From the IMG/VR virus record IMGVR_UViG_3300046837_000232, positions 1 through 42,745 of that record: DNA of 42,745 nt, one strand, 5' to 3'. The stretch is from a virus. Of this stretch, positions 17,601 to 36,981 are shown piece by piece. Positions within the stretch are counted from its first letter, which is position 1, and every line of letters starts with the position of its first letter. Below the pieces are notes generated by a model. The model searched no databases and was not told the DNA's origin. It saw only the letters and a list, made by a program, of their open reading frames with translations. Position numbers and translations under genes: made by a program.

Positions 17601-18130
17601 TGCCTGTAGTGATCTATCGCAATTACAATGTCAGCAACGATACATCGTCAAGCGCATTGAGCAACTTGGTCGTGGTCCCAATTCCTGCGGCGTCTATGGG
17701 GACTAACAGGGCAGTCCATATTTATGTCGCGGGAGACTTTTTGCAAAACTCCGGCTCATCAACTGGGGCTGTCTTGGCGGTTACTTTCGGTGGCACTACA
17801 AACTATCACACCGGGGCTGTAAACACTCAGAATTTACTATTCCCGGCCAGAACCCAACGGCAGGGATTCTCGTTTGAGTTCATATTGCAAAACACAGGAA
17901 CCGTTAATTCGCAATCAATGGTTGGGAACATTTTGTTTGCCAGCGGTGGAACATCTCCGTTGATTGGTGCGGGGTTTCCTAATTCGACGGTATTCATGAA
18001 TCCTATCTGGGGGGCATCTACGGCCATAGACACCACTTCCGCTCAAAACTTTGTCGTGTATTGGCAATGGCAGAGTGCGTCTGCATCGTGCGAGTTCAAG
18101 GTTCAAAACGTCATCGCCATACTTGAATGA
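14654..18130 (+). CDS. Large tail fibre/spike with beta-helix and signal peptide
   Basis: 1,158 residues from ATG 14654; upstream extension to 14408 overlaps the previous gene. Residues 1-30 form a signal peptide (basic MKTIIRLK, hydrophobic LMLVLVLCALCVL, then EARA before QQ), the last part of the h-region coming from an inverted repeat copy. Residues 45-100 hold GGTFSNVTFIG-like beta repeats. From about 137 (GIQEAINDMP) to 445 a right-handed parallel beta-helix of the pectate-lyase type is likely, the usual architecture of receptor-binding or depolymerase spikes. Two copies of a module ending in ITGAVVNGQAEIG / VTGAVVNGQANIG lie near 565-660. A GATGPQGP collagen-like piece is near 876. Base use shifts to AT-richer at 16150-16480 and after 17000. 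It ends in an ATGA overlap. Confidence 0.8.
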   Translation: MKTIIRLKPVLMLVLVLCALCVLSRQEARAQQPAVFSPGGGAGSNFYFFTINSNINGGTFSNVTFIGTNTFTGGTFSNSIFVGSNYFPTFVGGQITSTNFVGDAGNLTNISAVYRVFTNGTVIGPKGKLVTTGTVSAGIQEAINDMPLAPSSAAASKFLIPGGGTIVLEGPGQFVCTGQIIIPSYTNRPFNLKIRGEGLPQVIYNGPGGSNFVITTEYIGSTLFNGLRLEVDNISWLMIPNTTNMIFKIGAYQDVRFRNNTFAWNFGLTNQSAHANGGYTYNYELTQSVQPGVVGVWLEPSSSVWSEFTGNTFFGLACAIAHGGNRGIISGNNFGSIGSFFTNSAYTYTTLWTNADYAGSLDVASFMGLGPAIVYETFDSSDLTIENNSFLKCGASVINVGGSITVANDFYFGGNYKVVNYSLGGHCAVNHSQGGFQEADHGDAIINDSGTTPWFTFSPQTSTTTTGPFTIVSNSILGLSIWGNLNASNNFAVNGTATIKGGGPALDSVLVSDAVGLAHWTNGLNLSGSNTFSGTNFFTSIQVKVLLASNIVGAVTRIFTNTVSLGSDVVSNLDFIGNGGIAITGAVVNGQAEIGFTSTGGGGSGSASNAIVNVLTNGVSVAAGGTVISNLNILGNGSSVVTGAVVNGQANIGITSTGGGGAGTVSNAFGLGPGAVILGAGLGGVMASGNAFSGTDGLWATNATANFPLFANIISTTGRMTNGSLTASTLVGSDANKALNSITVGSGLLLTGNTLSTNGQTTSGGGGAPTITQTNWNINQVYTVGSAPILALSSIVLIGPATTGSGVMAIMADQSGGSTFTTLSVVSNSVTTQQTIVVPLEGILKAGAKFYFTNSSDGTGATSDFTFGTGYFVTLTGATGPQGPTDPNALTNNDTRAITITGPLTNNGVEFVKDELMVSANGNNVAINSNSVAITTSGNATFSSSTGPLVLAPQNGIVTNQADLFVTGKLSAQFGFGGTNGNVPVVIYRNYNVSNDTSSSALSNLVVVPIPAASMGTNRAVHIYVAGDFLQNSGSSTGAVLAVTFGGTTNYHTGAVNTQNLLFPARTQRQGFSFEFILQNTGTVNSQSMVGNILFASGGTSPLIGAGFPNSTVFMNPIWGASTAIDTTSAQNFVVYWQWQSASASCEFKVQNVIAILE
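14706..14732 (-). repeat. Inverted AACGCARAG-family copy in a signal peptide
   Basis: The reverse complement of the main repeat (GCGCTCTTTGCGTCCTTTCG) encodes A-L-C-V-L-S-R of the fibre signal peptide. Confidence 0.8.
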
Positions 18131-19221
18131 GGACTCTTGCGCTATTGCTGTGCCTTGCTCAGACGCTCGGGGCGGCTGTGACGGGGACAATCTCCGGTCA
18201 AGCGAGTATTACCGGCAAGGCCGTTCTTAGTGGTAACGGAGTTTTCATTGCGCCCCCGGTTGCTGCCTTCAATGCCAGCACGACCGCAGGTGATCCAACG
18301 CTTTCCGTGACGTTCACTGATGCCTCGACTGGAACGCCAACGTCGTGGTTCTGGAACTTCGGAGACGGCAACACCAGCACCAGTCAGAACCCGACTCACG
18401 GTTTTGCATCGGGTTTAACGACTGTGACGTTTACCGCGCAGAACGCGGGAGGAAGTTCGAGCACAACGACAAACATCGTTGTCAACTATCTGGCGGACAT
18501 CTTCGTTGACTTTCACGGTGGAACAAGCGGACAGGCAGTAACCACAAACCTGCTCGCAGCCTCGTCTTACATCAGCACCAGTTTCAAAGGGACATGGACA
18601 TTACTCGGAGGTCAAACGGCCACCAATCTTCCGACTTCCACAGCAATGTTTTTCACCAATGTAAACGCCGCCTTACCTGCTCCAGTCAAGGTGGACGGTA
18701 CCGCACATGACGGGGCAAACGGAGTCGGGATGGCTTACTTCTTCAATGGCGCTTTCGAGCAGTATGGAGTGCTAAATTGGGCCACCAATTACCCAACTGT
18801 GTCCTTCCAGTGTATCATGTCTTTCGGTGAGGCAAACGGGAACTTCTTCGATCATGGCGTCATGGAGTCCACGACCAACGCGAGCGTCTATTGCTCGTTT
18901 CCAAACTATCATTCAGGATTGCCCGCATTGAGAACTGAAACCTGCCCCTCTCCTAATCCATGCGTGTTTGGATCAAATGTGACTATCTCCCGAAACACCA
19001 ATTACCGAGTTGTTGGGAAATGGGTCAGTGGGGATGGTGGCTATATAAACTTTTATGATATGTCCGGCAATCTAGTCGGCAGCACCTACTCAAGCAATGA
19101 CAGCATCGCTGGAGGTGTCGCGCTATTTCAACTCGGCATCCCTTCGAGCAGCGACGGGGGAAACACAGTGGCGTTCTGGGACAGCCTTGCAATCAAGTTC
19201 GACGGAAGTCTTTACCAATAA
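18127..19221 (+). CDS. Secreted-type PKD-domain adhesin-like protein
   Basis: 364 residues, starting in an ATGA overlap with the fibre gene. Residues 1-16 (MRTLALLLCLAQTLGA) are a signal peptide. A PKD domain covers about residues 42-120 (PPVAAFNAS, then SWFWNFGDGNTSTSQNPTH, ending NIVVNY), the Ig-like fold common in bacterial surface proteins. The rest, about 230 residues, looks like a lectin/LamG-type beta sandwich (IFVDFHGG, SFQCIMSFGEANGNFFDHG, VAFWDSLAIKFDGS). It is probably a receptor- or polymer-binding accessory of the tail, or a protein exported by the infected or lysogenic cell. Base use is AT-richer than in the head genes, matching the preceding fibre end. Confidence 0.75.
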   Translation: MRTLALLLCLAQTLGAAVTGTISGQASITGKAVLSGNGVFIAPPVAAFNASTTAGDPTLSVTFTDASTGTPTSWFWNFGDGNTSTSQNPTHGFASGLTTVTFTAQNAGGSSSTTTNIVVNYLADIFVDFHGGTSGQAVTTNLLAASSYISTSFKGTWTLLGGQTATNLPTSTAMFFTNVNAALPAPVKVDGTAHDGANGVGMAYFFNGAFEQYGVLNWATNYPTVSFQCIMSFGEANGNFFDHGVMESTTNASVYCSFPNYHSGLPALRTETCPSPNPCVFGSNVTISRNTNYRVVGKWVSGDGGYINFYDMSGNLVGSTYSSNDSIAGGVALFQLGIPSSSDGGNTVAFWDSLAIKFDGSLYQ

Positions 19222-30347: not shown

Positions 30348-30422
30348 TTACCAATGACCAATTTTCAATGTTCAATGACCGTTTATTGGGAATTGAGAAT
30401 TGAAAATTTGGGATTTGAAAAT
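30348..30422 (+). repeat. Double heptamer repeat before the giant gene
   Basis: ACCAATG/TTCAATG-type heptamers (30353-30378) are followed by TTGAGAA/TTGAAAA-type heptamers up to ATG 30421. The array fills the whole 73-base gap. Confidence 0.9.
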
Positions 30423-30428
30423 GCCTGA
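30354..30428 (+). CDS. Repeat-derived 24-residue mini-ORF
   Basis: ATG 30354 opens a frame (MTNFQCSMTVYWELRIENLG at its start) through both heptamer arrays; its TGA overlaps the first codons of the giant gene. Possible translational bridge; product doubtful. Confidence 0.3.
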   Translation: MTNFQCSMTVYWELRIENLGFENA

Positions 30429-33400
30429 GGAACTATTAGAGGCCGACGTCAATCCTGCTGCTGCTGCGGCGCCACCCAAGAAGGTGAGCTGGGAGCAGGC
30501 GACGCGGGCGCCTAAGGTGAGCTGGGATGTGGCGACGCGGGGGCAGAGGGTGGCGGGATCGGAGGACCTGGTGGTGCCGGGGTTTCCGATGCGGGGCAAT
30601 GTGGATCTGCCGACCGAACAGCCGCAGCGGCGAGGGGAGGGCGCCCGCCAGCAGCTGGCCAGTTACGATGTGCTGATGGAAAGCATGGGGGCGCGGGACC
30701 CGATCATTTCACCATTCACAGAGCTGAGCCAGGAGGAGCAGAAGGCGCTGAGGTTGAGCACGCCGCAAGAGCAGCTCGAGGCGGGGCTGGCGGAGGGATC
30801 GGCGCATGCGATCAACAGCTTGTTCACGCCGGAGAACGTGACGTTGATGGCCGGGACGATGGGTTTGGGAGCGGTACCGGTGCTGGGCCGGGCGCTCGCG
30901 TTGGGGTTTGCTTATTCGATGCTCAAGGATTTTCCGGACCAGGCGATCGAGCTGGGGACGGAGATGGGCAAGCCGAAGGGGGCGCGGGATTATCAGAAGG
31001 TGGGGCAGCTGGTGACCGAAGGGGCCTTTAACACGGGTTTTGGAGTGATGGCGGCGGCGCATGGGATCGGGCCGCGGCGGCCGGGCGGGCCGGGGCCGGC
31101 GGCGGCGCGGCTGCTGGGGGAACAGGTGCGGCGGGCTCGAGGGGTGGGGATGGAGGAGGCGGCGGCGATGGGTGGGGCGGGCATAGAGGAGACAGGCAGG
31201 ATGCCGGACCCGGAGAACCTGGTGACGCTGGACCAATTTTTTACGGAGGCTAAAGCCGCGCAGACGCGGGAGGAAGCGGCCGGGGCGCTGAAGAACATGG
31301 TGCTCCGGCGGGCGGCAAGCGACCGGCTCAAGCAGGAACAGGAAGCGCAACGGTTGCGCCCGCAATATGAGAGGGAACGGCAAAGGGCCAATGTCGCGGT
31401 CCCGGAGACGCCGGCAGAGCCGCAACGTAATCTTTCGGTGATCGAGGAGATCCGGGCGAACAATGCGCGGACCAAGCAGCAGGTGCAGGATCTATTTAAG
31501 GCCAGGGGCTTGTCGCGGGAGGAGGCGGGGCAGTTGCGGGACCTGGCTTGGGGGCCGAGCGAGGAACAGGGAGTAACCGCAAAGAACGCAGAGAACGCAA
31601 AGAAGACGGTGAGCTGGGAGCAGGCCACCGGGAAAGGAACAAGTGATCAGCAAGAAAGGGCACCAGTATCAGGTGCAGAGTCGCAAGGGGCGCAACCTGG
31701 GGACGTACAAGAGCAAGCGGGGGGCGAAGAAGCGGCTCCAGCAGGTGGAGTACTTCAAACACATGGAGCAGAGCCGGCGGAGGTATTGAGGCCGCAAGAT
31801 AAGGCGAAGCTGCGCGAGTTGTTCACCAAGGCGATCGAGAAGGGAAGCCAGGTCAATGCCGATAGCGCGGAGGAAGTGGGTTTGACCAAGCCGGAAGGCT
31901 GGATCGAGCATAAGGACGAGACGACCGGGAGCAGGAGGTGGTTTCCGCCGCAGCCGCCGGAGAGGCCGGGGATCGCGTTGGGGAGGCAGTATCGCGACCT
32001 GGTGAAGCGGATTAAGGCGGCGAAGGACCTGGATGAGCTGTCAGATTTGAAGGAGGAAATGGACAAGTTCGCGCCCGGGCTGGATCCGGAGGACGCGGAA
32101 ATGCTCTATGATCAGCATGAGCGGATGGTGGCTAAGATGCTGGCGCCGCCCAAAGGTGGCAAGGGCAAGCCGGAGCCGGTACCTAAACCGATTTGGGAGA
32201 TGACCAGGGAGGAATTTCTTGGCAAGCCAAAGGGGCACGATGCGAAAGCTGCCGCCGAATATCTCGACAAAGCCAATGCCCACGAGGCTGCGGTGGAACA
32301 AGCCCTGCTGGCTGGGGAGACTGTGCCACGTGAGGTCCTGGACGATTACTCGCCGCTAGACAATTTCCCCAAGATCAAAGCCGCGCAGATCGAAGACATG
32401 ACGCGGCTGAACAACAAGCAGGCCAAAGACAAATATGGAGTGACGTTGGCAGAGTTGAAGGGGAAGCAAGTCGGAACGAAAGGGCAAGGGCCAGAGGCCA
32501 CTAAGGCGCGTGCCCAGGCGGAGGCGATCAGCAAGAGGTGGCGGCAGTTTTTTGTCAAGAAGGCCAAGGCCGCCGAAGGACCGAACGAGCTGGCAGCGCT
32601 AGAGCAGCAGATTACCGACACGGCGCACCTCCTGGAGCATCCGGACGCAGTGATGGTGCGCAGCGCGATGAATGACCAGGCGGCGAAATTGGAGCAGCTC
32701 GCCAAGGGAATGGAGAAACAGCACACACCTACGCCCGAGCAGAAACCAAAGCCGAAGCCTGGACCGAAGGCGGAGAAAGCGGCGGAGGAGAAGCTGCTGG
32801 CGGATGCGCAGAAGGTGGTGGACTCGAGGCCGCGCAGCGGGACCGAGGGCGGGCCCAGCGCCAAAGAGGTGAAGGCGGACCTGGTGGGGCGGATCCGGGC
32901 GGAACTCGTCAAGCTGGTGGAAGACGACAACGTGAAGCTGACGCGCAACGCGGACGGGGGCTACGCGGCGCAGGGCGATGGTGGCGGGATCGCTTTTGGC
33001 GAGGTGACCGAGAAGACCGGCGGCAAAGTGCAGGTGACGATCAGGGAGGCGGGGGACAAGAAGGGCGCCCATAAGGTATCCGCGACGGTGGAGAACCTGG
33101 CGGAGGCGGAACTGATGATCAAGGCGATGGCGGCGCGGCGATCGGGCCGGGCAATCATCGCGGTGCCGGGTGACGGGATCTATCAGCTCAACCGGACGGG
33201 CAACACGATGCTGGGGGTGTGGCGGGATGCGCGGCTTTTGGAGACGGGCAAGGGAGAGGCGGGAATTCGGAGCAACGCGCCAGCCGCCGAGCGGCCGCCG
33301 GCACAAATCAAGACGGAGCAGGACTGGCGGGATGCGAAGGAATTTCATGGGCTGGAGCCGGATAATAAGATCGCGGAATTCTCGAATGCGCTGGCGGAGT

Positions 33401-36400
33401 TTGCGCGCAAGGTGAAGCCGGAGGATCCGGACTCTCTGACGACTAAGCAGGTGGATGATTGGGTGAAGGAACGGATGAAGACGGGGAGTAGCCGCGAAAA
33501 GGCGCAAGAGCCGCAAAAGGGGACTGAGCCGGAAACTGCCGAAATGGCCCCACCATCCAGCCAGGGGGAGGTCGGGAAAGCGCGTCCTGGGGCCGGCCAG
33601 GGGGCTAGTGAGGGGCAAAATCTGCCTACAGAGGAGGAAATGGCGTTTCCGAGCACGCGGACGATGGGGCGGACGGAGACGGTGTTGCGGGGGCAGGAGC
33701 AGAGCGCGGAGCCGGGGCTGGAGGGGGCGAGTATTGAGCTGGCCCAAACCGTGAAACAGGGACCCGGTTTAACCGCAAAGAACGCACAGAATGCAAAGAC
33801 GGGGACGGCGGCGGCGCCGACTGCAGGGGCAAAGCCTAAGTGGTTTCAGGGGTTGCGGCGGGTGTTTGCTTCGGCGAGCGTGGATGAGGACGCGCAGATG
33901 ATGGGCGGGATCCTGCGGGCGGCCATGGGTGCGGAGAACGCGGCGCTGGCCCGGGCGGATGCGGCGCTGAACCAGTACCGGTTTTACTTCGACAAACGGC
34001 CGGTGGGCCGGAACTGGCAGTATAACCCGAATGTGCCCTTGCCGCTCAATTACCAGATGATCGAGCGGGTGGAGAGCGGGGACCTGGCCGGGCTCACCGA
34101 GGTGGAGCGGCGGTTTGTGACGTCCATGCGCCAGCTGCTCGACGAGGGGGTGGACGCGGTGCATGCCGTCTCGCCGGAATCGTTGCGGGATTTGATCACC
34201 AACTATTTTCCGCGGCTGTGGAAGGATCCGGTAAAGAACCGAGACAAGATCGCGGCGCTGGTTTCGAAGCGGCCCTGGGAGGGGAGCAAGGCATTCCTGC
34301 GAAAGCGGACGCTCGAGTACTTCACGGACGGCCTGGCGGAGGGATTGCGGCCGGCCAACGATAACCCGGTGGACATGGTGATGAGCAAGCTGGGGGAGAT
34401 GCACCGGTTTGTGGCGGCGCGCACGGCGATCGAGGAGGCGAAGGCGCGGGGGCAATACCGATTTTTTTATGTGTTCGAGAAGAAGCTGGCCAACTGGGTG
34501 CGGGTGGAGGACCCGACAAGCACGCAATGGGCGCCGCCGCATGTGACGGTGAAGGAGGCGTTTGACGCGCAGGTGCGGGCCAAGACGCTGGAGCTGATGG
34601 ATTGGCTGGGGATCGAGCACAGGCGATCGGCGGCGATCGGCGGGCGGCGCTGGGGTTACGCGGTGGCGCCAGGCGGCGGGCAGACGGTGAGCGCCGGGGG
34701 CACGGGCAAGCCAAGTTACTCGAGCGGCTACGTGCGGCCGAAGATCGTGACGAAGTTTGGCGGGCCGGACTTTGTGATGTGGCACGAGATCGGCCACCAG
34801 GTGGACTGGCTTTACCCGGATCTGCGCGATCAATTCAAGGGCAAGAAGATGCAGGACGAGCTGCGGGCCCTGGCGGATGCGCGAGCGGCGAACGTGCCGA
34901 AGATCTCCAAGGGGTTCAAAGATTACCTGCACAAGGAAGTGGAGAAGATGGCGAACCTGCTGGATGCGCACGTGCGGGCGCCGGCGCTTTTCGAGAAGCT
35001 GGCGCCGACGGTGCGGGCGGCTTACCTGAAATGGATGGACCTGCACCCGGACCTGCGCGACAAGATCAACGCGATCCAGCCGAGCCTGACGCTGGAGAGC
35101 GCGAGCACGCAGCAGAAGCTGGCCGGGCCGGTGAAGCTGGGGGATTGGATGATGCCGGCGGGCGCGGCCGGGGTGGTGCAGAATTACCTGGCGCCTGGCC
35201 TGGGCAAATACAAGGCCTTCCGCGGGCTGCGCGATGTGGCGGGCTTGCAGAACGGGATCCAGCTGGCGGGATTTTTCCACGGGTCGGTGGTGTTCAAGGA
35301 CGCGTGGTATTCGAGCGTGGGCTTGACGGCGTACGACCTGATGAAGGCGGGCGGGCGGGTGGCGCTGGACCAGGATCTGCCGGACGCGGCGCGGTTGCTG
35401 GCGCGGGCGGGCCGGGAGGCGGCGCTGAGCGCGACGGTGGTGGGCCCGGCGATAGACAGCTTCATCCGGGGCCGGAGGATCTACCAGGCGACGCGAGAGC
35501 CGGGGAGCATGGGGCCCAAGGCGGACTTCATCGCCCGGCTGGCGCAGGAGGCGAACCTGAGGGCGGGCCATTCGAACTATGACGCGCAGTTTGCGCGGCG
35601 GTGGCGGGCGAACTTTTTTGAGGCGGTGAAGGCGCCTTCGATCGGGGCGGCGTGGGATGTGTTCTGGCGGACACCCTTTGCGGCGCTACAGCTCACGGTG
35701 ATGCCGGTGCTGCAATACCTGGTGCCGCGGATGAAGATGGGGATCTTTGCGCGGATGGCAGAGCGGGTGATGGCGGACAACCCGCGGATGGGCAAGGAAC
35801 AGATGCGCCGGTTGCTGGCGCAGGCGGCGGATGCGACGGAGGACCGGCTGGGCCAGGTGACGTATGACAATTTATTCCAGCATCGAGCGGTGAAGGACAT
35901 CGGGCAGCTGACCTTCCGCGCGTACGGCTGGCAGCTGACCAAATACCGGATGATCCTGGGAGCGGGCGTGGACTGGGGCAAGGCCGGGGCGGCGCTGGTG
36001 CGGGGCGAGCGGCCAAACCTGACCTTTCGAATGACTTACCTGCCGGCGATGATCGCGGGGCATGCGGCGATCGGCGCGGCGGTGCAGTACTTGCTGACGG
36101 GCAAGCCGCCGAAGGAGCTGCAGGATTATCTATTCCCGGAGTCGGGATTGATAGACGAGTACGGGCGGCCGATCCGGATCGCGATCGCGGATTTTGTGAA
36201 GGACATGGTGAACGATTGGAAGAGTTTCCCCAACCTTCGCAAGATGGGGGCGGAGTGGACGCGCAAGCTGAGCCCGCTGTGGAACACGGCGGCGGAGATG
36301 ATGCGCAACCAGGACTTTTACGGGACGGAGATTTTCTCGCCGGGCCAGCTGGGGGAGCCGGCGCTGGAGCACCTGCTCAAGAACCTGGGCGAGGGGGCGC

Positions 36401-36981
36401 AGTATTTCGCGACGGGCAACCGGCCATTCTCGGTGCAGGCGGGCCAGCGGATCGCGCAGGCCGGCGGCGGGCCGGGGCTGCAGGTGGCGCCGTGGTTCGG
36501 GTTCACGCCGGCGCCGCGCTACGCGATACTCTCGCCGGCGGAGGAGCGGGCGAGCGAGATCATGCGCGGGCTCTCGCCGCAGGGCAGCCGGAGCAAGGAA
36601 CAAAGCCAGCACGCGCAGCTGCTGGGCCAGCTGGTGCGTGATGTGCGCTCGGGCAAGGTGGGGGACGATGGGGAATTCGCGAAGCGAGCGGGGGCGGCCA
36701 AGGTGAAGGACCAGGCGGAGTTAACGCGGCTCAAGGAGCGGATCCTGTGGACGCCGCTGCAGTACCAGATCTGGCACATGCCGGTGGACAAGGCGATGGA
36801 GGTGTGGGACCTGGCCAATGAGAAGGAGAAGCTGAGCCTGGCGGCCGGGATCGCGGAGAAGATTGACCGCGCGTACAAGCGGGGCGGGATGGAGGATGAC
36901 AAGGCCAGGAGATACGTGCAGATGGTGGAGCCGTACTGGCGGAGGGCGAGGGAGGGGAAGGCGACTAATGGCAACAGATAA
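30421..36981 (+). CDS. Giant ejection/large polyvalent protein with HExxH motif
   Basis: 2,186 residues from ATG 30421 (just after a repeat). The first 400 residues hold three VSWEQAT-like motifs (near 20, 33 and 396) and a hydrophobic/glycine segment. The middle is charged, coiled and Lys/Glu/Pro-rich. Near residue 1455, VMWHEIGHQVDW is a zinc-metallopeptidase HExxH motif. The C-terminal 700 residues (including YLLTGKPPKELQDYLFPES and a large helical domain) match the style of phage large polyvalent or internal virion proteins injected with DNA. Three repeat copies (31574, 33489, 33768) are translated as TAKNAENAK, SREKAQEPQK and TAKNAQNAK in linkers, and a 48-residue ORF is nested at 31643. 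It overlaps the ATP-grasp gene by 14 nt. Fusion of formerly separate genes is possible. Confidence 0.78.
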   Translation: MPEELLEADVNPAAAAAPPKKVSWEQATRAPKVSWDVATRGQRVAGSEDLVVPGFPMRGNVDLPTEQPQRRGEGARQQLASYDVLMESMGARDPIISPFTELSQEEQKALRLSTPQEQLEAGLAEGSAHAINSLFTPENVTLMAGTMGLGAVPVLGRALALGFAYSMLKDFPDQAIELGTEMGKPKGARDYQKVGQLVTEGAFNTGFGVMAAAHGIGPRRPGGPGPAAARLLGEQVRRARGVGMEEAAAMGGAGIEETGRMPDPENLVTLDQFFTEAKAAQTREEAAGALKNMVLRRAASDRLKQEQEAQRLRPQYERERQRANVAVPETPAEPQRNLSVIEEIRANNARTKQQVQDLFKARGLSREEAGQLRDLAWGPSEEQGVTAKNAENAKKTVSWEQATGKGTSDQQERAPVSGAESQGAQPGDVQEQAGGEEAAPAGGVLQTHGAEPAEVLRPQDKAKLRELFTKAIEKGSQVNADSAEEVGLTKPEGWIEHKDETTGSRRWFPPQPPERPGIALGRQYRDLVKRIKAAKDLDELSDLKEEMDKFAPGLDPEDAEMLYDQHERMVAKMLAPPKGGKGKPEPVPKPIWEMTREEFLGKPKGHDAKAAAEYLDKANAHEAAVEQALLAGETVPREVLDDYSPLDNFPKIKAAQIEDMTRLNNKQAKDKYGVTLAELKGKQVGTKGQGPEATKARAQAEAISKRWRQFFVKKAKAAEGPNELAALEQQITDTAHLLEHPDAVMVRSAMNDQAAKLEQLAKGMEKQHTPTPEQKPKPKPGPKAEKAAEEKLLADAQKVVDSRPRSGTEGGPSAKEVKADLVGRIRAELVKLVEDDNVKLTRNADGGYAAQGDGGGIAFGEVTEKTGGKVQVTIREAGDKKGAHKVSATVENLAEAELMIKAMAARRSGRAIIAVPGDGIYQLNRTGNTMLGVWRDARLLETGKGEAGIRSNAPAAERPPAQIKTEQDWRDAKEFHGLEPDNKIAEFSNALAEFARKVKPEDPDSLTTKQVDDWVKERMKTGSSREKAQEPQKGTEPETAEMAPPSSQGEVGKARPGAGQGASEGQNLPTEEEMAFPSTRTMGRTETVLRGQEQSAEPGLEGASIELAQTVKQGPGLTAKNAQNAKTGTAAAPTAGAKPKWFQGLRRVFASASVDEDAQMMGGILRAAMGAENAALARADAALNQYRFYFDKRPVGRNWQYNPNVPLPLNYQMIERVESGDLAGLTEVERRFVTSMRQLLDEGVDAVHAVSPESLRDLITNYFPRLWKDPVKNRDKIAALVSKRPWEGSKAFLRKRTLEYFTDGLAEGLRPANDNPVDMVMSKLGEMHRFVAARTAIEEAKARGQYRFFYVFEKKLANWVRVEDPTSTQWAPPHVTVKEAFDAQVRAKTLELMDWLGIEHRRSAAIGGRRWGYAVAPGGGQTVSAGGTGKPSYSSGYVRPKIVTKFGGPDFVMWHEIGHQVDWLYPDLRDQFKGKKMQDELRALADARAANVPKISKGFKDYLHKEVEKMANLLDAHVRAPALFEKLAPTVRAAYLKWMDLHPDLRDKINAIQPSLTLESASTQQKLAGPVKLGDWMMPAGAAGVVQNYLAPGLGKYKAFRGLRDVAGLQNGIQLAGFFHGSVVFKDAWYSSVGLTAYDLMKAGGRVALDQDLPDAARLLARAGREAALSATVVGPAIDSFIRGRRIYQATREPGSMGPKADFIARLAQEANLRAGHSNYDAQFARRWRANFFEAVKAPSIGAAWDVFWRTPFAALQLTVMPVLQYLVPRMKMGIFARMAERVMADNPRMGKEQMRRLLAQAADATEDRLGQVTYDNLFQHRAVKDIGQLTFRAYGWQLTKYRMILGAGVDWGKAGAALVRGERPNLTFRMTYLPAMIAGHAAIGAAVQYLLTGKPPKELQDYLFPESGLIDEYGRPIRIAIADFVKDMVNDWKSFPNLRKMGAEWTRKLSPLWNTAAEMMRNQDFYGTEIFSPGQLGEPALEHLLKNLGEGAQYFATGNRPFSVQAGQRIAQAGGGPGLQVAPWFGFTPAPRYAILSPAEERASEIMRGLSPQGSRSKEQSQHAQLLGQLVRDVRSGKVGDDGEFAKRAGAAKVKDQAELTRLKERILWTPLQYQIWHMPVDKAMEVWDLANEKEKLSLAAGIAEKIDRAYKRGGMEDDKARRYVQMVEPYWRRAREGKATNGNR
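31574..31602 (+). repeat. AACGCARAG-family repeat inside the giant gene
   Basis: Perfect main-family copy translated as V-T-A-K-N-A-E-N-A-K. It lies 41 bases before a nested ORF and may mark an old gene boundary. Confidence 0.9.
31643..31789 (+). CDS. Nested 48-residue ORF of a conserved-looking phage type
   Basis: In another frame of the giant gene, GTG 31643 follows a strong ribosome site (GGAAAGGA) and opens 48 codons to TGA 31787. The peptide contains HQYQVQSRKGRNLGTYKSKR and RLQQVEYFKH. The pattern GKNLGxYxT/SKxxAxKRLxQVEYFKH is, as far as I recall, a recurring small phage protein found near internal virion genes. In the giant frame the same bases give a low-complexity Gln/Glu/Gly/Ala stretch, so the nested frame looks like the older or more constrained one. 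It could be a real overlapping gene, or a sign that two or three genes were fused. Confidence 0.65.
   Translation: MISKKGHQYQVQSRKGRNLGTYKSKRGAKKRLQQVEYFKHMEQSRRRY
33489..33520 (+). repeat. CGCAAAA-type nonamer repeat inside the giant gene
   Basis: TAGCCGCGAAAAGGCGCAAG and a third unit, translated in frame in a polar linker. Confidence 0.85.
33768..33799 (+). repeat. AACGCARAG-family repeat inside the giant gene
   Basis: TTTAACCGCAAAGAACGCAC and a further unit, translated as L-T-A-K-N-A-Q-N-A-K just before the metallopeptidase-containing part. Confidence 0.9.

Follow-up and report, generated by a model that had tools for sequence, protein, structure and literature searches.

Genes that lie out of frame within other genes are known in phages, and the classical examples are E within D of phiX174 and Rz1 within Rz of lambda. 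The usual account of both E and Rz1 is overprinting, in which a new frame arises in an older gene, and nested genes in general are commonly attributed to it. A further described system is the ShiLan methylase, which carries an insertion that hides an out-of-frame HNH homing endonuclease of 195 amino acids (PMC11855218).

In this study, we analyzed a small open reading frame (ORF) that lies within a giant ORF of a virus. The window, that is, the whole stretch of DNA analyzed, comprises the 42,745 nucleotides of IMG/VR record IMGVR_UViG_3300046837_000232. Our analysis indicates that the 147 bp of the small ORF are likely a genuine out-of-frame (+1) gene within a giant gene of the large polyvalent protein type; the small gene was probably captured and most likely serves in head assembly or packaging. 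No expression evidence supports this conclusion, which rests on homology, composition, and comparison with related loci.

Results

The small ORF is read on the same strand as the giant ORF, in frame +1 relative to it, and is wholly included in it (Table 1). Its translation is VISKKGHQYQVQSRKGRNLGTYKSKRGAKKRLQQVEYFKHMEQSRRRY, a strongly basic protein in which 15 lysine and arginine residues were counted against 2 acidic residues. The giant-frame reading of the same bases is referred to here as the shadow. The window is rich in GC and contains 353 ORFs of at least 40 amino acids; therefore, a length of 48 amino acids provides by itself no evidence for a gene.

Table 1. Features of the nested gene and of the giant ORF around it (window positions).
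Feature	Position	Strand	Description
Giant ORF	30400..36981	+	2193 aa, TTG start; codon-phase composition follows this frame before and after the overlap
Repeat copy TTTAACCGCAAAGAACGCAGAGAACGCAAAGA	31572..31603	+	Interspersed repeat, mostly intergenic elsewhere; giant frame reads TAKNAENAK
Giant-frame motif VSWEQA(T)	31609..31626	+	Otherwise found only twice, at the giant N-terminus (30484, 30517); possible former gene start
Shine-Dalgarno-like stretch GGGAAAGGAA	31630..31639	+	Moderate, seen in the sequence upstream of the nested GTG; duplex energy -5.6
Giant-frame shadow of the nested gene	31642..31788	+	Hydrophilic stretch rich in Q/P/G/E/A; probably an interdomain linker
Nested gene	31643..31789	+	48 aa, GTG start, TGA stop; supported by homology, codon-phase composition, and predicted fold (pLDDT 92.4)
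In-frame giant TTG overlapping the nested stop (TTGA)	31786..31788	+	Possible restart codon

The GC content by giant codon position was approximately 0.66/0.45/0.8 on both sides of the nested ORF and 0.90/0.54/0.35 within 31643-31786. This flip of the codon-phase GC at the borders of the nested ORF is the signature of a gene whose codons begin one base further on. When the giant was scanned in 2145 sliding windows, the nested ORF gave by far the largest excursion into the +1 frame (LLR 32.6), and the best excursion not overlapping it reached an LLR of only 5.1. The duplex energy of the ribosome site of the nested gene was similar to that of the other genes of the window and was equalled or bettered at 29 of the 75 start codons in the +1 frame of the giant. 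A first-pass annotation, made without database searches, had described a 48-residue frame nested in a giant gene and had credited it with a strong ribosome site; the former claim was confirmed in its coordinates, GTG start, TGA stop, and frame, whereas the latter failed, the site being only moderate.

The nested protein was used as a tblastn query and matched 271 of 50,697 phage records (best E value, 1e-4); in addition, 45 viral loci on uncultured viral contigs matched it at approximately 50-65% identity. It also matched a hidden Markov model (HMM) built from the relatives plus the nested sequence itself (E value, 3e-20) and a phrog_3684-like family (E value, 8e-5). The family consensus is MIxKxxxGYxVxSExGKNLGxxxxSKxxAxKRLxQVEYFKH. 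The nested protein met the family criterion of a whole-domain sequence match including the conserved G..L..A.KRL.QVEYFKH, and that of the beta-beta-beta-alpha fold common to the relatives, the fold being predicted by a model. The 48-amino-acid protein is thus a member of the QVEYFK beta3-alpha phage domain family (phrog_3684-like).

The AlphaFold model of the nested protein predicted a beta-beta-beta-alpha arrangement of three strands and a long helix with high confidence (Table 1). Viral models annotated as XkdF, cytidyltransferase, and others superposed on this model with TM scores of up to 0.94 and a probability of 1.0; the Foldseek E values of these superposing family models were 4e-3 at best. 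Fold matches in the PDB were weak, namely yaiA (VIA Z, 5.2), the AP2 domain (4.8), and HVO_2922 (4.4), with Foldseek E values above 1. Matches at Z values of 4.4-5.2 may reflect only a common arrangement, and a known fold is neither shown nor excluded. A search of solved structures by sequence with the nested protein yielded nothing convincing.

After the HMM was run over all fetched loci and duplicates were removed, 62 copies of the domain were stand-alone, 58 were fused in frame to other proteins, and 33 were nested. The loci had been sampled through patterns around QVEYFK, and the 62/58/33 split does not represent population frequencies. The in-frame fusion partners include a head maturation protease, a portal protein, a DNA ligase, and a cytidylyltransferase, and in cultured enterobacterial phages the domain forms the N-terminus of a DUF2213-type protein encoded beside head decoration and capsid genes. 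Some stand-alone copies were located after the terminase large subunit gene (loci L013, L039, L102, and L164), next to the portal gene (L013, L020, and L164), and before the major head protein gene (L041). The ten head-gene neighbours considered were chosen for looking like head genes and do not constitute a survey. Because terminase, portal, and head maturation protease occur as neighbours or fusion partners of relatives, a role of the small protein in head assembly or packaging is likely, although it is inferred from neighbours and fusions alone. The head role is not unique, because the fusions also include DNA ligase and cytidylyltransferase.

Among the cultured-phage records examined, family members were found only fused or stand-alone. 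Of the phage records, only that of Aeromonas phage 1233 came near the nested consensus; it was rejected as a nested case because the shadow of its gene contains four stops. This stand-alone member (L179; OR359403.1, 54724-54852) is unannotated at the match in a sparsely annotated record.

The nested arrangement recurred in 34 other loci, all from uncultured viruses, making 35 with the window, and the small gene was always in frame +1. Frame +2 is impossible because an ATG-ATN or GTG-ATN start contains a TGA in that frame. Nested loci were recognised by the openness of the shadow and were sampled through the patterns around QVEYFK; further ones surfaced when giants served as queries. Among the 35, L135 is near-identical to L150, and the copy in L126 is broken. 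The apparent overlaps at L008, L009, and L017, where the small gene immediately precedes another gene, were not counted as nesting in a giant.

Most of the long ORFs around the nested copies had 800-3500 codons. By overall similarity, the giants fell into 12 groups and were mosaic, or had little in common beyond the shadow of the small gene; several had nothing detectably in common with each other or with the giant of the window, the shadow excepted. Because modules are shuffled, the independence of every giant group remains unproven. The nested copy was the sole family member in 32 of 33 contigs, and in L126 the only copy is split. In that contig (positions 2992-3640), the nested gene lies in two pieces approximately 190 codons apart with the giant frame open, an arrangement indicating a decaying nested gene.

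Shine-Dalgarno (SD)-like sites preceded the nested gene in contigs that use them and were missing in contigs that do not, as expected of a real start; this finding rests on few contigs. In most nested-type contigs (e.g., L021, L022, L089, and L157), genes almost never have SD-like sites. The hosts of these contigs may be organisms that do not use such sites, such as Bacteroidota, but the host is a guess.

To the extent that related giants could be paired, both frames were found to be under constraint. In ten related pairs, the substitutions at giant codon positions 1/2/3 numbered 93/30/18 in the overlap and 392/262/874 in the flanks, a shift from position 3 to position 1 (Fisher p=5e-28); therefore, conservation follows the nested protein within the overlap and the giant in both flanks. 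Given the protein and the codon usage, the probability of an open shadow was <0.02 in all loci but L022 (0.05) and the GC-rich window (0.18), and the shadow was open in only 3 of the 58 fused copies. At nested third positions, which are position 1 of the giant codons, T was found in 0 of 382 cases where a stop would result; where no stop was possible, its frequency had dropped to 5.5%, from 38%. Because nested loci were recognised by their open shadow, the definition leaves only the latter comparison unaffected. Below 90% protein identity, nested copies showed less synonymous change than stand-alone copies of equal identity in most identity bins. These results show purifying selection on both frames in related phages; the giant of the window itself has no relatives in which this could be seen.

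Over all nested loci, Q, P, G, and E were overrepresented in the shadow and L, F, Y, and M underrepresented. In a model of a segment of the L021 giant, the shadow (residues 139-186 of the segment) was a low-confidence coil between ordered helical parts; this model was weak, with a mean pLDDT of only 57.5 from nine sequences. We consider it likely that the shadow is a linker-like stretch of the giants.

The first-pass annotation had further held that the giant frame is of low complexity at these bases and that the small protein resembles a recurring phage protein. Both claims held, the former in the composition of the shadow and the latter through homologues in phage records and uncultured viral contigs. 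Of the checks it had proposed, the protein search for homologues of the nested frame came out in favour of a nested gene, and the analysis of codon substitutions was favourable in related phages with the same arrangement, the window's own giant lacking relatives.

The giant of the window matched no known family in Pfam or PHROGs and had no relatives among the viral contigs and phages searched, and against profiles of the other giants it matched at the shadow only. A search through the major head protein recovered only a near-identical contig, which stops short of the giant. Polyvalent-protein domains, present in some nested-type relatives, were not detected in it. By analogy with the other nested-type giants, it is probably a large polyvalent-type protein; its unity and the selection on it are inferred from other phages.

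The repeat copy in Table 1 lies 44 bp upstream of the nested start. A direct mismatch scan of the window found about 14 copies of this interspersed repeat, TTTAACCGCAAAGAACGCAGAGAACGCA(AAGA), on the + strand, most of them right after a stop, with the next start close behind (positions 2636, 4144, 7037, 13797, 14244, 19613, 20228, 20558, 21190, 21806, 22540, 28910, 31572, and 33768). The two copies within the giant (31572 and 33768) read in frame as TAKNAxNAK linkers. The TTG at the nested stop could be a restart codon, but other nested loci do not conserve it. Elsewhere in the window, positions 18127-19221 encode a predicted protein with a PKD domain (E value, 1e-13), possibly a virion surface protein.

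Discussion

We propose that the small basic beta3-alpha protein, most likely with a role in head assembly or packaging, is encoded by an old and portable phage gene that a giant gene took in at an interdomain junction. Ribosomes would start at the internal GTG and produce the 48-amino-acid protein, and for those translating the giant, this stretch would specify a flexible linker in frame 0. Selection would retain the small protein with its third positions nearly free of T, which would keep the giant frame open and hydrophilic, and frame +1 would be forced by the start itself, where the TGA falls in the other frame. Translation of the nested gene, the route of its capture, and the production of the window's giant as one protein are inferences.

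No giant is as widespread as the small gene, which was therefore probably captured, not born, in the overlap. Identity in the flanks often changes abruptly at the nested gene (between L032 and L096, 56% upstream and 98% downstream; between L024 and L174, 88% upstream and 24% downstream), and giant domains lie at varying distances from it; therefore, the nested gene appears to lie at a junction of module exchange. Abrupt switches of this type were observed in L024, L032, L096, L108, and L174, as if giant modules recombine there. In the window, the mostly intergenic repeat so close to the nested start is the reason that a swallowed neighbour fits, and the repeat and the N-terminal-type motif together raise the possibility of a former gene gap turned coding. 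The first-pass annotation had offered a true overlap or a swallowed neighbour as alternatives; this is supported, and the two readings are not exclusive, the likely course being that the small gene was first captured and then kept as a true overlap.

An unlikely but not negligible alternative is that the giant of the window is two adjacent genes without a stop between them, or the product of a sequencing indel, in which case the small gene would be an ordinary one in the gap after the usual intergenic repeat and the downstream gene would start near GTG 31609 or TTG 31786. In favour of this reading, the repeat at 31572-31603 is mostly intergenic elsewhere in the window, the N-terminal VSWEQAT motif reappears just past it, TTG 31786 overlaps the nested TGA, and an open shadow has an 18% chance in the window. 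Against it, the giant frame is free of stops from 30400 to 36981, so that a ribosome translating the first part would have to continue into the second; the second repeat copy at 33768 is also inside the giant and reads in frame; and 34 other loci, many of them AT-rich, hold the same frame open against the odds.

The remaining alternatives are weaker still. Programmed frameshifts, one into the +1 frame and one back, could place the small domain within the giant without any separate protein, and the domain does occur fused in frame within larger proteins. This is very unlikely, since each passage would need two frameshifts, each nested ORF has its own start and stop at the usual ends of the family, and the SD-like sites at the nested starts track the SD use of the contig. 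We find it equally hard to view the nested element as a selfish homing insertion, moved between giants by its own activity. The layout of the ShiLan HNH gene is admittedly similar (a GTG-start gene out of frame, with the host-frame reading open and loop-like; PMC11855218), and flank identities change abruptly at the nested gene. Nevertheless, the protein has 48 amino acids and no nuclease domain in Pfam or PHROGs, its relatives are neighbours of and fusions with head genes, and no clean empty site was found among giants without the nested gene, which do not align on both sides. A chance ORF without function, for which the many ORFs of similar size in the window might speak, is all but excluded by the codon phase, the predicted fold, and above all the homology of the nested frame.

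Returning to the captured gene, a bolder reading is possible, in which large accessory polyvalent genes have, time and again, grown around a useful small head gene and so taken it over, in a frame fixed by the TGA in ATG-ATN. The overlap would make the giant hard to lose, because its deletion would delete the head gene, and would anchor module swapping; if this is true, the conserved nested gene is a recombination anchor for the exchange of giant modules. The process would be the reverse of overprinting, a big gene growing around a small one, and could be studied here with many replicates, often in otherwise unrelated giants. Gene callers tend to drop such ORFs, and a likely head-assembly protein would thus be missed in these phages. 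Methods for detecting dual coding may also be tested on the nested set, which is a natural counterpart of the overlaps engineered to stabilise genes (PMC8528312).

The open-access literature searched yielded no report of QVEYFK genes nested in giants, which is weak evidence of novelty. The description of large polyvalent proteins (PMC5512222) did not mention overlap or nested genes in a term search. Some nested-type giants resemble those proteins in their mosaic domain order and in matches to LPD38-like, RadC, endolysin, and DarB-like domains, whereas the giant of the window itself matches no known family.

Among the closest known counterparts of the small protein are, for example, the QVEYFK domain at the N-terminus of the DUF2213 head maturation protease in Salmonella phage PJN025 and the corresponding protein in Escherichia phage Bas78, both homologous over 41-48 amino acids. 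In these phages, the domain is fused in frame and is the sole reading of its bases, whereas that of the window is a free protein overlapped by a giant. The ShiLan system is alike in that a small out-of-frame gene lies in a phage host gene whose frame is open throughout, at a predicted loop (PMC11855218); it differs in that a homing endonuclease of 195 amino acids lies in a methylase, as opposed to a 48-amino-acid non-nuclease of a head-associated family in giant genes. With phiX174 E/D and lambda Rz1/Rz, the locus shares complete out-of-frame nesting and an internal start. In contrast to E and Rz1, the small gene of the window is widespread outside the overlap, so that the linker of the giant is the newer reading. 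What appears to be new in this arrangement is an old, portable gene probably captured, not born, inside giant genes.
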